Of a stretch of 64,000 nt of DNA, positions 16,360 through 20,770 are shown in pieces. The DNA lies in NCBI RefSeq assembly GCF_000794385.1, contig NZ_JTJB01000003.1, positions 124,001-188,000 on the forward strand. The letters are read 5' to 3'. Numbering within the stretch: position 1 is the first letter of the stretch; each line of letters begins with the position of its first letter. The translations under genes and the position numbers were made by a program. The notes under the pieces were generated by a model. That model was not told the origin of the DNA. It made no database searches and worked only from the letters and a program-made list of their open reading frames with translations. This DNA comes from Thermus sp. 2.9. GTDB lineage: Bacteria; Deinococcota; Deinococci; Deinococcales; Thermaceae.

Positions 16360-17423
16360 CCCGCCCTCTCCAAAACCCGCCTGGCCTCCTCCCGCTCCTC
16401 CCGAGTGGCGAAGGAAAGGCGGAGGGCCCCCGCCGCTTCCCGGATGGTGAGGACCTCTATGTCCTTGATGTTCACCCCGGCCTCCCCCAAGGCGGTGGCG
16501 ATGCGGGCGATCTCCCCAGGGCGGTCCGGCACCTGCACCACCAGGTCGTACATCTCGGGGAGGAGGCTCCGGCGCACGATGGGAAGGCTGTCCCGGGTGC
16601 GCTTGGCCTCCTCCGCCACCTGCAAGAGGGCCTCGGGCTCGTCCAGAAGTCCTTCCAGTTGCAAAAGCACCGCCCGGAGTTCCTCTATGGCCTCCTTGAG
16701 GGCTTCCCGGTTCTCCACCACCATGTCCCGGCTCATCCTGGGGCTTCCCGAGGCGATGCGGGTGAGGTCGCGGAAGCCCCCGGCGGCCAGGAAGATGAGG
16801 AGGTCCTTATGGGGGTTTTGCGCCACCATGCGGTTTAGGGCCACGGCCAGGAGGTAGGGGAGGTGGGAGATCCGGGCCACCAGCTGGTCGTGAAGGAGGG
16901 GGGGCATCTCCAGGGGGTAGGCCCCTAGGGCCTCCACCAGGCGCAGTATGCCCTCCCGGGCCTTGGGGCTCGTGCGGGCCGTGGGGGTTAGGACCCAGAC
17001 GGCGTTTTGCAGAAGCCCGGCGTGGGCGTTTTCCACCCCGGCCCGCTCGCTTCCCGCCATGGGGTGGCCCCCCAGGTAGTGGGGAAGAAGCCCCTCCAGG
17101 GCCGCCACCACCTTGCCCTTGACGCTCCCCACGTCCGTCCAGAGGCTTTCGGGGTGGGCCAGGGGGCTTAGGGCCTGGGCCAGGGCGGGCAAAGCCCCCA
17201 CGGGGGCGGCGAGGATGCCCAGGGAAAGCTCCCCCACCCAGGGCCCGAGCTCGGCGTGGACCCGGTCCGCCACCCCCAGGAAGAGGGCCTTTTCCAGGGC
17301 CAAGGGGTCTTGGTCGTAGGCGTGGACCTCCTCCGCCAGGAAGCGCTCCTTGAGCCCCAGGGCCACGCTTCCCCCCAGGAGGCCCACGCCGAAGATGCCC
17401 ACCTTGCCGAAGAGGGGCTTCAT
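16344..17423 (-). CDS. tyrA: Prephenate dehydrogenase with C-terminal ACT domain
   Basis: Oxidative decarboxylation of prephenate to 4-hydroxyphenylpyruvate in tyrosine synthesis. 359 residues: Rossmann loop VGIFGVGLLGGSVALGLKE at the N terminus, catalytic region containing GGHPMAGSERAG, and an ACT domain at about 290-355 (QVPDRPGEIARIATALGEAG) that normally binds tyrosine for feedback control. The start ATG overlaps the stop of aroF by 4 bases, so both are one operon under the attenuator upstream of aroF. Confidence 0.94.
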   Translation of the reverse strand: MKPLFGKVGIFGVGLLGGSVALGLKERFLAEEVHAYDQDPLALEKALFLGVADRVHAELGPWVGELSLGILAAPVGALPALAQALSPLAHPESLWTDVGSVKGKVVAALEGLLPHYLGGHPMAGSERAGVENAHAGLLQNAVWVLTPTARTSPKAREGILRLVEALGAYPLEMPPLLHDQLVARISHLPYLLAVALNRMVAQNPHKDLLIFLAAGGFRDLTRIASGSPRMSRDMVVENREALKEAIEELRAVLLQLEGLLDEPEALLQVAEEAKRTRDSLPIVRRSLLPEMYDLVVQVPDRPGEIARIATALGEAGVNIKDIEVLTIREAAGALRLSFATREEREEARRVLERAGYRLP

Positions 17424-18454
17424 GCCAGGGCAGGGGTGGAAAGGGTCTTGTCCAAGGCCACCACCAGGCGGCGCACCCTTTCCATGAGCTCGGCGAACTC
17501 GTGCTCATGAAGCTGTTGCGCCGCGTCGGAAAGGGCTTTTTCGGGCTCCGGGTGGGTTTCCACGATGAGCCCATCTGCCCCGGCGGCGAGCCCCGCCAGG
17601 GCCAGGGGGATGACCCAATCCCGCTTGCCCGCGGGGTGGGAGGGGTCCACCCAGACGGGAAGGTGGGTCCAACTCTTGAGCACGGGCACGGCGGCGACAT
17701 CCAGGGTGAAGCGGGTGGCCTTCTCAAAGGTGCGGATGCCCCGCTCCACCAGGATGACCTGCATGTTTCCCCGGGAGAGGATGTACTCCGCGCTCATCAA
17801 AAACTCCTCCAGGGTCATGCTCATGCCCCGCTTGAGAAGCACGGGCTTTTTCGCCTCCCCCACCGCTTGGAGGAGGGGGAAGTTCTGGGCGTTACGGGCG
17901 CCGATCTGGAAGGCGTCGGCGTACTCCGCCACGAGCTCCACCTGTTCCGGGGAGAGGACCTCGGTGACCACGGGGAGGCCCGTTTCCTTACGGGCTTCCG
18001 CCAGGATCTTCAGGCCTTCCACCCCTAGGCCCTGGAAGGCGTAGGGGCTCGTGCGGGGCTTGAAGGCGCCGCCCCGAAGCATCGCCCCCCCGTGGGCCTT
18101 CACGTACCGGGCCGCCTTCAGGGTCTGCTCCCGGGACTCCACCCCGCAGGGGCCCGCCGCCACCATCACGTGCCCGCCCCCCGTTTTCCCCGTGGGGAAG
18201 TCTAAGACGGTGGGGAAGGGTTGAACCTCGAGGCTCGCCAGCTTCCAGGGCTTGGAGATGGGGATGACCTCCGCCACCCCGGGAAGGGCCCGGAAGTGCT
18301 CCATGAGCTCGGGGGTGGGGCCGCGGCCGATGGCCCCCACCAGGGTGGTCTCCACCCCCCGGGAGACGTGGGGCCGGTAGCCCACCTTCTCTATCTCCCG
18401 CACCACCTCGTCCAGCTCCGCCTCCGTGTGTCCCCGCTTCATCACGATGAGCAT
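17420..18454 (-). CDS. aroF: 3-deoxy-7-phosphoheptulonate (DAHP) synthase
   Basis: First committed step of the shikimate pathway, joining PEP and erythrose 4-phosphate. 344 residues of the type I-beta class: an N-terminal ferredoxin-like regulatory domain (MLIVMKRGHTEAELDEVV, residues 1-70) and a TIM barrel with AGPCGVES, GGAFKPRTSPYAFQGLG and PVWVDPSHPAGKR. The regulatory domain is the usual site of Tyr/Phe inhibition. The ATG has a strong AGGAGGGG site immediately after the U run of an attenuator terminator. Overlap with tyrA implies translational coupling. Confidence 0.95.
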   Translation of the reverse strand: MLIVMKRGHTEAELDEVVREIEKVGYRPHVSRGVETTLVGAIGRGPTPELMEHFRALPGVAEVIPISKPWKLASLEVQPFPTVLDFPTGKTGGGHVMVAAGPCGVESREQTLKAARYVKAHGGAMLRGGAFKPRTSPYAFQGLGVEGLKILAEARKETGLPVVTEVLSPEQVELVAEYADAFQIGARNAQNFPLLQAVGEAKKPVLLKRGMSMTLEEFLMSAEYILSRGNMQVILVERGIRTFEKATRFTLDVAAVPVLKSWTHLPVWVDPSHPAGKRDWVIPLALAGLAAGADGLIVETHPEPEKALSDAAQQLHEHEFAELMERVRRLVVALDKTLSTPALA

Positions 18455-18465
18455 CTTCCCCTCCT

Positions 18466-18498
18466 AAAAACCTTGGGCGCCCCCTTTTGGGGGCGCCC
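18466..18498 (-). terminator. Attenuator terminator of aroF-tyrA
   Basis: Perfect 10-bp stem GGGCGCCCCC-AAAA-GGGGGCGCCC (18475-18498) followed, on the minus strand, by AAGG and five T (18466-18470), only 12 bases before the aroF start. Its ascending arm can instead pair with an identical copy of the descending arm inside the leader peptide gene (18528-18537), the antiterminator. Confidence 0.85.
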
Positions 18499-18513
18499 GG
18501 TTGCGGTGAAAGC

Positions 18514-18579
18514 CTATGCGGACCGCAGGGCGCCCCCGGCGGGATAATAAAAGCCGAAGTAGCGCCCTGGTCTCCGCAT
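18514..18579 (-). CDS. Phe/Tyr leader peptide of the aroF-tyrA operon (21 aa)
   Basis: A 21-codon frame starting ATG 18577-18579, with GGGGG four bases upstream, and ending TAG 18514-18516. The peptide begins MRRPGR, then YFGFYY, then PAGGALRSA: five aromatic codons (TAC, TTC, TTT, TAT, TAT at codons 7, 8, 10, 11, 12) in a row of six. TTT and TAT are unusual in this GC-rich genome. Codons 4-6 form attenuator segment 1 (CAGGGCGC, 18562-18569), pairing with GCGCCCTG (18526-18533), extended by ATGCGGA with TCCGCAT. A ribosome stalled on the aromatic codons would cover segment 1 and free segment 2 for the antiterminator. The role is inferred from this architecture. Confidence 0.8.
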   Translation of the reverse strand: MRRPGRYFGFYYPAGGALRSA

Positions 18580-18589
18580 ATTGCCCCCA

Positions 18590-18619
18590 AGTTTAGGGGG
18601 TGGCCCCATGGCCTGTCAA
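18590..18619 (-). promoter_or_regulatory. Promoter of the aroF leader
   Basis: Consensus -35 TTGACA (18614-18619), 18-base spacer, -10 TAAACT (18590-18595). The predicted start is only a few bases before the leader ATG at 18579. The promoter lies in the 3' end of the VOC gene. Confidence 0.75.
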
Positions 18620-19360
18620 CCGCACCCGTATCCCCACGGGGTCCAGGAGGGTTTCCTCGCGTCCTTTGGGGTCCAAGAGGGTGTAGCCCACAAGCCCCGT
18701 GGCCCCTTCTGGAGCCCTCCTTGGCCCCGCCCAGGTGTTGGCCCCCACGTGGTGGTGGTAGCCGTCCCAGGCGAAGAAGAGGGCCCCGGGGTAGGTGCGC
18801 AAGGTGACCTCCATCCCAAGCCTTCCGGCGAAGAAGGTTTCGGCCTCGCCCAGGTCCGCCACGTGCAGGTGGAGGTGGCCGAGGAGGGTTTCCGGGGCCA
18901 GGGGGGTGGCCTTGGGGTTTTCCGCCAGGAGCCTTTCCAGGTTTAGGGGGGCGGTGAACATCAAAGGCCCTTTGGGCCACTCCCCCTGGGGGCGGTCCCG
19001 GTAGAGCTCGAGGCCGTTCCCCTCAGGGTCGCGGAAGTAAAGGGCCTCGGAAACCCCGTGGTCCGCCGCCCCCTCAAAGAAGGCCCCGGCTTCCAGGAGC
19101 CTGCGGCAAACCCCGGCCAAGGCCCTGCGGTTCGGGAGGAGGAGGGCGAAGTGGTAAAGGCCCAGGGAGGGGTAGGGCCTTAGGGGGGCCTTGGGGTCGT
19201 GGTGAAGCTCTAGGCAAAACCCCTTCCCTTGGGGAAAGAGGCGGAAAAAAGGGGGGTCTTCCTCCACCTCTAGCCCCAGAAGGTCCCGGTAAAACCCCAA
19301 GGCGGCCCCCAGGTCCCGCACCCTTAGGGCCAGGGAAAGGAGCCGCCTGGGAAAGGGCAT
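18593..19360 (-). CDS. VOC family protein with two glyoxalase/ring-cleavage dioxygenase-type domains
   Basis: 255 residues made of two vicinal-oxygen-chelate modules. Domain 1 (LALRVRDLGAALGFYRDLLG) ends with FRDPEGNGLELYRD. Domain 2 (HLHLHVADLGEAETFFAGRL) contains YHHHVGANTW. The arrangement is that of CatE-like catechol 2,3-dioxygenase homologues, with candidate metal ligands in LYHFALL, ELYRD and HLHLHV. Substrate is unknown. Its ATG overlaps the stop of yceI by one base, so it is second in the yceI operon. Confidence 0.85.
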   Translation of the reverse strand: MPFPRRLLSLALRVRDLGAALGFYRDLLGLEVEEDPPFFRLFPQGKGFCLELHHDPKAPLRPYPSLGLYHFALLLPNRRALAGVCRRLLEAGAFFEGAADHGVSEALYFRDPEGNGLELYRDRPQGEWPKGPLMFTAPLNLERLLAENPKATPLAPETLLGHLHLHVADLGEAETFFAGRLGMEVTLRTYPGALFFAWDGYHHHVGANTWAGPRRAPEGATGLVGYTLLDPKGREETLLDPVGIRVRLTGHGATP

Positions 19361-19896
19361 TACCGGGCCACCGCCTCCTGCGCCTTTACCGCTTCGGTGT
19401 CCACGCTAAAGCGCACCTCTTCCCCCACCAGCACCCCGCCCATTTCCAGGGGCACGTTCCAGGTGAGGCCGAAGTCCTTGCGGTTGAGCTTGCCCTCAAA
19501 GTGGGCCGCGATGCGCTCGTTGCCCCAGGGGTCCTTGGCGGGGCCATGGGTTTCCACCTCAAAGGAAAGGGGCCGGGTCACGCCGCGGATGGTCACCTCC
19601 CCTTCCACGCGGTAGCGCCCCTCGCCCAGGGGGGTGATCTTCTCGCTCCGGAAGACGATCTCGGGGTGGTTTTCCACGTCCAGGAAATCAGGCGAGCGCA
19701 GGTGGTTATCCCGGTCCGCCACCCCGGTGTGGATGCTCCTGGCGTCCAGGCGGGCTTCCACCCGAAGGGGCTTGCCGCCTTCGTCCGTTTCCACGTACCC
19801 CTCCTTGAGGTTCAGGGTGCCCTTTACCGTGGCGATCATCATGTGCCGTACGGCGAACTCCACGCTGGTGTGGGTGGGGTCCAGGTTCCAACGCAT
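19360..19896 (-). CDS. YceI family protein (lipocalin-like, polyisoprenoid-binding)
   Basis: 178 residues starting MRWNLDPTHTSVEFAVRHMM, the exact family opening. YceI proteins form a beta-barrel that binds isoprenoids such as polyprenyl quinones. No signal peptide, so cytoplasmic, as in the Thermus homologue whose structure is known. ATG at 19896 was chosen over an upstream in-frame ATG because it has a GAGGAGG site and matches the family start. Located next to menaquinone genes, which may be relevant for a quinone-binding protein. Confidence 0.92.
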   Translation of the reverse strand: MRWNLDPTHTSVEFAVRHMMIATVKGTLNLKEGYVETDEGGKPLRVEARLDARSIHTGVADRDNHLRSPDFLDVENHPEIVFRSEKITPLGEGRYRVEGEVTIRGVTRPLSFEVETHGPAKDPWGNERIAAHFEGKLNRKDFGLTWNVPLEMGGVLVGEEVRFSVDTEAVKAQEAVAR

Positions 19897-19927
19897 ACAC
19901 ACCTCCTCGGGCCCTCGGCCCAGTAGA

Positions 19928-19960
19928 ATATTATCTAAAGCGCTATATGAAGTCAAGCGC
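19928..19960 (-). promoter_or_regulatory. yceI promoter with flanking AGCGC inverted repeats
   Basis: -35 TTGACT (19951-19956), 17-base spacer, -10 TAATAT (19928-19933). The -35 is bracketed by GCGCT (19940-19944) and AGCGC (19956-19960), an inverted repeat with 11 bases between that could be an operator. It lies at the 3' end of mqnA. Confidence 0.65.
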
Positions 19961-20770
19961 TAGCTGGGTAGTACGTGGGCTGGAAGGGAAGCCCCAAGGC
20001 CTCGGCGAAGGCCTTTAGGCCCAGCCGGTCGGGCTCCTCCAGGTGGTAGCGGAAGTTCCAAAGGTAGTGCTGCAGGAGGGCGGGGTTCACGCCAAGCCGC
20101 TTCCCTTCCGCCTCCGCTACCTCCTTAAGCCGGCCCAAGCCCTCCCGCCTCGCCCGCCTGAGGGCCTGCACCAGGGCCTTGGGGGGAGGGTTTTCCTTGC
20201 GGTAGGCCCAGACGGCGAAGACGAAGGGGAGGTGGGTCCTTTGGAACCAAAGGGCCGAGAGGTCCACCACCTCCACCCCGCCGAAGCGGGTGGGAAGAAC
20301 ATGGGGGGTTTCGGGAAGCTCGGGTAGGAGGCTGGCATAAGCTTTTATGGCTCGGTCGCCGATGAGGAGGACGCCGTCGTACCTTTCCAAGAGTTCCAAG
20401 CCCCCCTCCACCTGGGCGTAGCTGGGGGTTAGCCCCTTTTCCCGTAGGAGGAGCTTGAGGAGTTCCACGCTGGTGGCGCTTTCCGTGGTGAGGGCCACCT
20501 GCTTTAGGGCCTCGAGGGGCACCTTGTGGAAAAGGTTCACGGAGTACACCCGGCCCAACACCGCCACGGAGAAATCGGGAAGGAGGCCGAGGACGTCTTG
20601 GTGCTTCAGGTAGAAGTAGCTGGAAACCAGGGAAAGCCCCACCTCCCCCGAAAGTACCATGCGGTTCAGCTCCGCCGGCACCCCGTGGCGGAGGAGAAAC
20701 CCATCCGCTTCCAGAAAGCGGTGGAGGGGGGCGGTGTTGGCGTAAAGAGGCACCCCCAGGACGTAGGCCA

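Follow-up and report, generated by a model that had tools for sequence, protein, structure and literature searches.

A predicted ribosome-mediated Phe/Tyr attenuator ahead of aroF-tyrA in Thermus and related Thermaceae

The pheL/pheA attenuator of enterobacteria combines a Phe-rich leader, which has its own Shine-Dalgarno site, with a switch between 1:2, 2:3 and 3:4 RNA helices; it controls pheA and senses Phe only. The Sinorhizobium peTrpL peptide of trpLE, which is translated from a leaderless transcript, is likewise an attenuator leader peptide, but one that serves Trp control of trpE. In E. coli, aroF-tyrA, the same gene pair as the one described below but with a different type of DAHP synthase, is mainly under TyrR repression. 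Attenuation of this E. coli operon was once hypothesised (Camakaris 1980, as cited in PMC8632094), peTrpL has been found to act also in trans (PMC7298713), and a survey of Rfam leaders suggested that amino-acid attenuators may have originated in gamma-proteobacteria (PMC3766115). Two further reports come nearer to the present locus. The uORFC-13-1 motif of 2021, for which attenuation was proposed (PMC8632094), places a Phe-codon uORF, a possible -10/-35 and an intrinsic terminator before Acholeplasma aroF; compared by description only, it resembles our locus in these elements but belongs to another phylum, has at least one Phe codon and comes with no mention of Tyr. In 2005, T. thermophilus aroA-Ibeta>tyrA was entered among putative attenuators (Table 7, from the Merino attenuator website; PMC1173090), that is, attenuation was predicted for the same operon in the same genus, but the entry says nothing of a leader peptide, of the amino acid sensed, of segments or of conservation. 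The sequence-only reading from which this work departs had known of no Phe/Tyr leader controlling DAHP synthase in this group; as regards the leader peptide this still holds, whereas the idea of attenuation had been anticipated by the 2005 entry. In the openly accessible literature, we found neither a description of a Thermus aroF leader peptide nor a T. thermophilus start-site or term-seq paper.

We propose, with a probability of about 0.88, that the aroF-tyrA operon in the stretch of Thermus sp. 2.9 DNA analysed here (the window, 64 kb) is controlled by a classical ribosome-mediated transcription attenuator that would sense charging with both Phe and Tyr, a reading based on sequence comparison and RNA modelling. 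Its parts are as follows.

18590 to 18619, minus strand: promoter, TTGACA (18619-18614) and TAAACT (18595-18590) with an 18-nt spacer
18514 to 18579, minus strand: leader ORF of 21 codons, MRRPGRYFGFYYPAGGALRSA and stop, from ATG at 18579 to TAG at 18516-18514
18562 to 18579, minus strand: segment 1, ATGCGGA (18579-18573) and CAGGGCGC (18569-18562), containing the leader start codon
18544 to 18561, minus strand: control codons Y7 F8 G9 F10 Y11 Y12 (TAC TTC GGC TTT TAT TAT)
18516 to 18537, minus strand: segment 2, with GCGCCCTG (18533-18526) and TCCGCAT (18522-18516) pairing with segment 1, and GGGGGCGCCC (18537-18528) pairing with segment 3
18489 to 18498, minus strand: segment 3, the ascending terminator arm GGGCGCCCCC
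18466 to 18484, minus strand: segment 4, GGGGGCGCCC (18484-18475), spacer AAGG and T5 (18470-18466)
18458 to 18465, minus strand: Shine-Dalgarno sequence of aroF, AGGAGGGG, adjoining the T-run
17420 to 18454, minus strand: aroF, DAHP synthase of the PRK08673/TIGR01361 type, 344 aa
16344 to 17423, minus strand: tyrA, prephenate dehydrogenase, 359 aa

The order on the minus strand is thus promoter, leader ORF, hairpin, T-run, Shine-Dalgarno sequence and aroF ATG. The aroF protein scores 478.8 bits against NCBIfam PRK08673 (cut-off 335) and 384.5 against TIGR01361 (cut-off 268), and the best matches of the tyrA product are prephenate dehydrogenases, at scores under the per-model cut-offs. Because the start of tyrA and the stop of aroF share 4 bases, the two genes form one operon, the products of which make Phe/Tyr precursors. 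The promoter lies where the sequence-only reading had placed it and is the sole sigma-70-type match within 2 kb around, where shuffles give 0.1. The leader ATG follows the -10 hexamer by about 11 nt and the transcript is therefore expected to be near-leaderless; from the sequence we infer a start site some 3-6 nt upstream of the ATG and, in Thermus, a leader ORF that is probably translated in this near-leaderless manner. The Thermus leader would work in the same way as pheL but with Phe and Tyr codons in place of Phe alone, and apparently near-leaderless.

The 21-codon frame bears out the earlier claim in full: five of codons 7-12 (YFGFYY) specify Phe or Tyr (7, 8, 10, 11 and 12), so that a short predicted ORF rich in aromatic codons, whose translation we deduce from its sequence, stands before biosynthetic genes. 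No other ORF in the 64-kb window has Phe or Tyr at five codons out of six. Both codon 11 and codon 12 are TAT, a triplet that makes up 9% of the Tyr codons in nine neighbouring genes of the window. The window has a single composite, the present one, of a short ORF with at least five Phe/Tyr codons in six and a following perfect hairpin of at least 8 bp whose descending arm is repeated within the ORF; 60 order-1 Markov copies of the window contained neither such a composite nor any ORF with five or more Phe/Tyr codons in six. The hairpin by itself is weak evidence, since such perfect hairpins (at least 8 bp) abound in the window, at about 24 sites.

This abundance of hairpins, together with a promoter that overlaps the VOC-family gene upstream at its 3' end, could be taken to mean that the hairpin merely terminates readthrough from that gene and that the leader ORF is incidental. 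We give this very little credence, as promoter, ORF and hairpins persist where the sequence further upstream varies, and the aromatic codons and alternative pairings are retained at 45/45 loci (see below). The conserved unit begins at the promoter, because mean pairwise identity among species is only 0.36 upstream of the -35 element and 0.885 in the leader.

Folding of the leader yields -73.9 kcal/mol, as against -56.2 +/- 4.2 in 200 shuffles, none of which equalled it (z -4.2), and the minimum free energy structure consists of the 1:2 and the 3:4 hairpins. The four segments come in the order 1-2-3-4, as had been claimed, and give the helices 1:2, 2:3 and 3:4, which are mutually exclusive; in the Thermus loci, the 2:3 helix amounts to approximately -24 to -36 kcal/mol. 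Two pairings on which the sequence-only reading had relied are indeed there: the copy of the descending arm at 18537-18528, inside the leader, can pair with 18498-18489, and the segment 1 arm at 18569-18562, upstream of the aromatic codons, is extended by ATGCGGA/TCCGCAT. As the 1:2 stem holds the leader start codon, free leader RNA would conceal that codon.

The 3:4 stem comprises 10 GC pairs and is accompanied by T5. The 10-bp stem and the U run of the earlier description are both there, with the qualification that AAGG intervenes between them; throughout Thermus, the T-run (3-6 T) begins 4-5 nt beyond the GC stem, which is a weak form of intrinsic terminator. This spacing, and the fact that the aroF Shine-Dalgarno sequence starts right after the T-run, might suggest a switch that acts on aroF translation or mRNA stability rather than on transcription termination. 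We regard such a switch as highly improbable, given that 9 nt separate the end of the 3:4 stem from the Shine-Dalgarno sequence, which the stem leaves uncovered, that a T-run is present in all Thermus, and that in Meiothermus-type loci the terminators are textbook ones with the T-run directly after the stem.

A T-box or riboswitch would be another way to control aroF-tyrA; T-boxes are known in the phylum (PMC3766115) and one sub-threshold match lies elsewhere in the genome. The leader is only some 110 nt long, however, and filled by the ORF and the stems. An Rfam search of 17000-20000 brought no family near its gathering score, the Rfam amino-acid leaders (Phe, Trp, His, Leu, Thr) gave no match at E up to 5, and T-box RF00230 did not match at the aroF locus, and thus we assign this explanation next to no probability. 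The T-box-like element itself, on another contig of the same genome (69212-69448), reaches 78 of the 93 bits of the Rfam cut-off.

Whether the position of a ribosome could throw the switch was modelled on RNA truncated after segment 3, the stage at which segment 4 is yet to be transcribed, with the ribosome footprint masked; for the footprint, sizes usual for ribosomes in general were assumed. In Thermus, the probability of the 2:3 helix is 0.93-0.96 when the A site lies anywhere from three codons before F8 through Y11 (through Y12 if the footprint reaches less far downstream). Past codon 12, and likewise at the stop, it does not exceed 0.16; in the absence of a ribosome it is 0.11-0.35. Under the assumed footprints, a stall thus frees segment 2 and a ribosome at the stop masks it, with the control codons just inside the zone where a stall frees segment 2, in keeping with the register claimed originally. 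For Meiothermus-type loci (see below), the probability on the control codons is mostly 0.4-0.8, with one position at about 0.2, and it is near 0 from three codons later. Equilibrium folding of the full-length masked RNA was also tried in Thermus and set aside as non-discriminating, for it favoured the terminator at nearly every codon. For this reason the switch must be kinetic, with segment 3 captured first; textbook attenuators likewise depend on early capture of segment 3.

From the anatomy, its conservation, the exclusive pairings and the modelled register we infer where transcription would start and terminate and how it would respond to Phe and Tyr. Transcription would start a few nucleotides ahead of the near-leaderless leader ORF. 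With ample supplies of both Phe-tRNA and Tyr-tRNA, the ribosome would reach the stop codon and mask segment 2, and the 3:4 hairpin would then halt transcription just before aroF. If either Phe-tRNA or Tyr-tRNA were short, the ribosome would stall at codons 7-12 and cover segment 1, such that segment 2 could pair with segment 3 before segment 4 was made and RNA polymerase would enter aroF-tyrA. Without translation, the 1:2 helix would form, sequestering the leader start codon, and 3:4 would terminate transcription.

Conservation was followed in aroF orthologues of 27 Thermus species and one sister genus (28 species). The whole element adjoins aroF in 28/28 of them; the leader frame, its 21-codon length and its stop are kept in every one, as are the control codons, the segments and the T-run (28/28), and relatives retain TTGAC and a TANNCT-like -10. 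With a covariance model built on Thermus, each genome scanned yields a single strong match, next to aroF in 28/28, and no paralogous strong copy away from aroF. Among the 27 species tabulated, codons 8, 10 and 11 are aromatic in all, codon 12 in 22 and codon 7 in 18; codon 8 is Phe (Tyr once), codon 10 always TTT and codon 11 always Tyr. In 25 sequences, the 2:3 pairs are formed in 100% (49-72% in slid registers), as are the 3:4 pairs of these Thermus-type sequences (100%), and 91% of the cells of the 1:2 helix, taken over 17 pairs, are paired (30-53% in slid registers). Formal covariation within the genus is nearly absent and cannot be demonstrated, because the Thermus stems are almost invariant.

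The evidence lies in the comparison between genera. In 17/17 genomes of two further genera with this type of aroF, including Meiothermus rufus, M. luteus, M. hypogaeus, Calidithermus roseus and C. chliarophilus, the same architecture stands ahead of aroF: a leader of the form ..FFGYFYWP..PVRxA and stop (for example MQTSRGFASQSARFFGYFYWPGVPVRLA), a terminator and an antiterminator. Segment 2 is here CCCCGTGAGG.., segment 3 is CTTCCGGGG or CCTCCGGGG with a complementary segment 4, and the terminator, CTTCCGGGG..CCCCGGAAG, is canonical, with its T-run directly after the stem. The stem sequences are largely replaced relative to Thermus, yet 1:2, 2:3 and 3:4 still form: 3:4 is 97.8% paired in 15 sequences, with one two-sided change, 2:3 is 97% paired, and 1:2 only 80% in the register as written. 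The leader ATG follows the -10 hexamer at a distance similar to that in Thermus (about 11 nt), and in three of these genomes the Thermus-only model matches weakly, precisely on the aroF leader. Altogether, the leader, the register and the three helices are kept at 45/45 aroF loci, that is, in the Thermaceae genera possessing aroF of this type. The conservation in relatives to which the sequence-only reading had exposed itself is hence found; as for the stem covariation it had looked for, this is near nil inside the genus, and replacement of the stems between genera takes its place as evidence. One genome of the Meiothermus type has about 110 nt more between attenuator and aroF, and a TTGACA-like sequence follows the terminator, possibly a second, attenuator-independent promoter.

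Measured from the stop, FG and the next aromatic codons line up in most loci of the two groups; within this alignment Phe and Tyr are interchanged (FGFYY in Thermus, FGYFY in the Meiothermus type), as would be expected under codon sensing. The leader peptide is also conserved beyond its aromatic residues, at G9, P13 and the R..A ahead of the stop, which could perceivably indicate a TnaC-like arrest peptide, in which the nascent chain and free Phe or Tyr set the ribosome stop and the RNA switch is the same. We consider this improbable. The conserved non-aromatic codons are fixed at their third positions too and lie inside segments 1 and 2, and RNA pairing therefore accounts for them; Phe and Tyr trade positions between genera; and the sign of control by an arrest peptide would be awkward, given that a biosynthetic operon should open on starvation. 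Sensing of Phe and Tyr charging at the control codons thus remains our preferred reading.

The same genome encodes a second DAHP synthase, an AroQ-AroA fusion, with a promoter/-10-like element a few bases before its ATG and neither a leader nor an attenuator in its upstream region; accordingly, only one of the two DAHP synthases seems to be attenuated. Five Thermaceae genomes have no match to the aroF type and only the fusion-type DAHP synthase, and hence some lineages may be able to do without the attenuated enzyme.

In two sister families, another in-frame, near-leaderless ORF lies upstream of aroF and encodes a peptide of the form M...GGxx[MV][DE]DGY.... The pattern has one match per genome in 24 genomes, while its reverse has no match; the ATG sits just past a -10-like hexamer in 23/24, and a second, internal start follows a GGAGGTG-like sequence. 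In two genomes this leader precedes tyrS (TIGR00234, 331.9 bits) and not aroF, and the subset of loci searched against Rfam gave no match. As there is just one Tyr codon in some copies, codon counting may be insufficient as an explanation, and it is possible that the peptide is a Tyr-dependent arrest peptide or an attenuator. It is tempting, though for now rather doubtful, to bring both kinds of leader together and to suppose that aroF is placed under near-leaderless, aromatic-sensing leader ORFs in several lineages of the order by two devices. One would be codon-counting attenuation, with a 1:2 stem locking the leader's own start codon, in Thermaceae; the other would be the GGxx[MV][DE]DGY peptide, possibly a Tyr-dependent arrest peptide, in the two sister families, where it also stands before tyrS.

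Taken together, the proposed mechanism is of a known kind, and what is new is its detailed documentation, through sequence comparison and modelling, in Thermus and its relatives. With it, the Deinococcota gain a detailed, family-wide case of predicted classical attenuation at the point where aromatic synthesis begins, one that falls outside the proteobacterial and actinobacterial examples. The near-complete exchange of stem sequences between genera amounts to a natural experiment, and a clean one, on the segment model, and terminator and antiterminator would have to switch at high growth temperature. The host ribosome and RNA polymerase are structural models, and because the leader seems to be started without a Shine-Dalgarno sequence, in vitro experiments with Thermus components could directly address its initiation, the stalling and the coupling.
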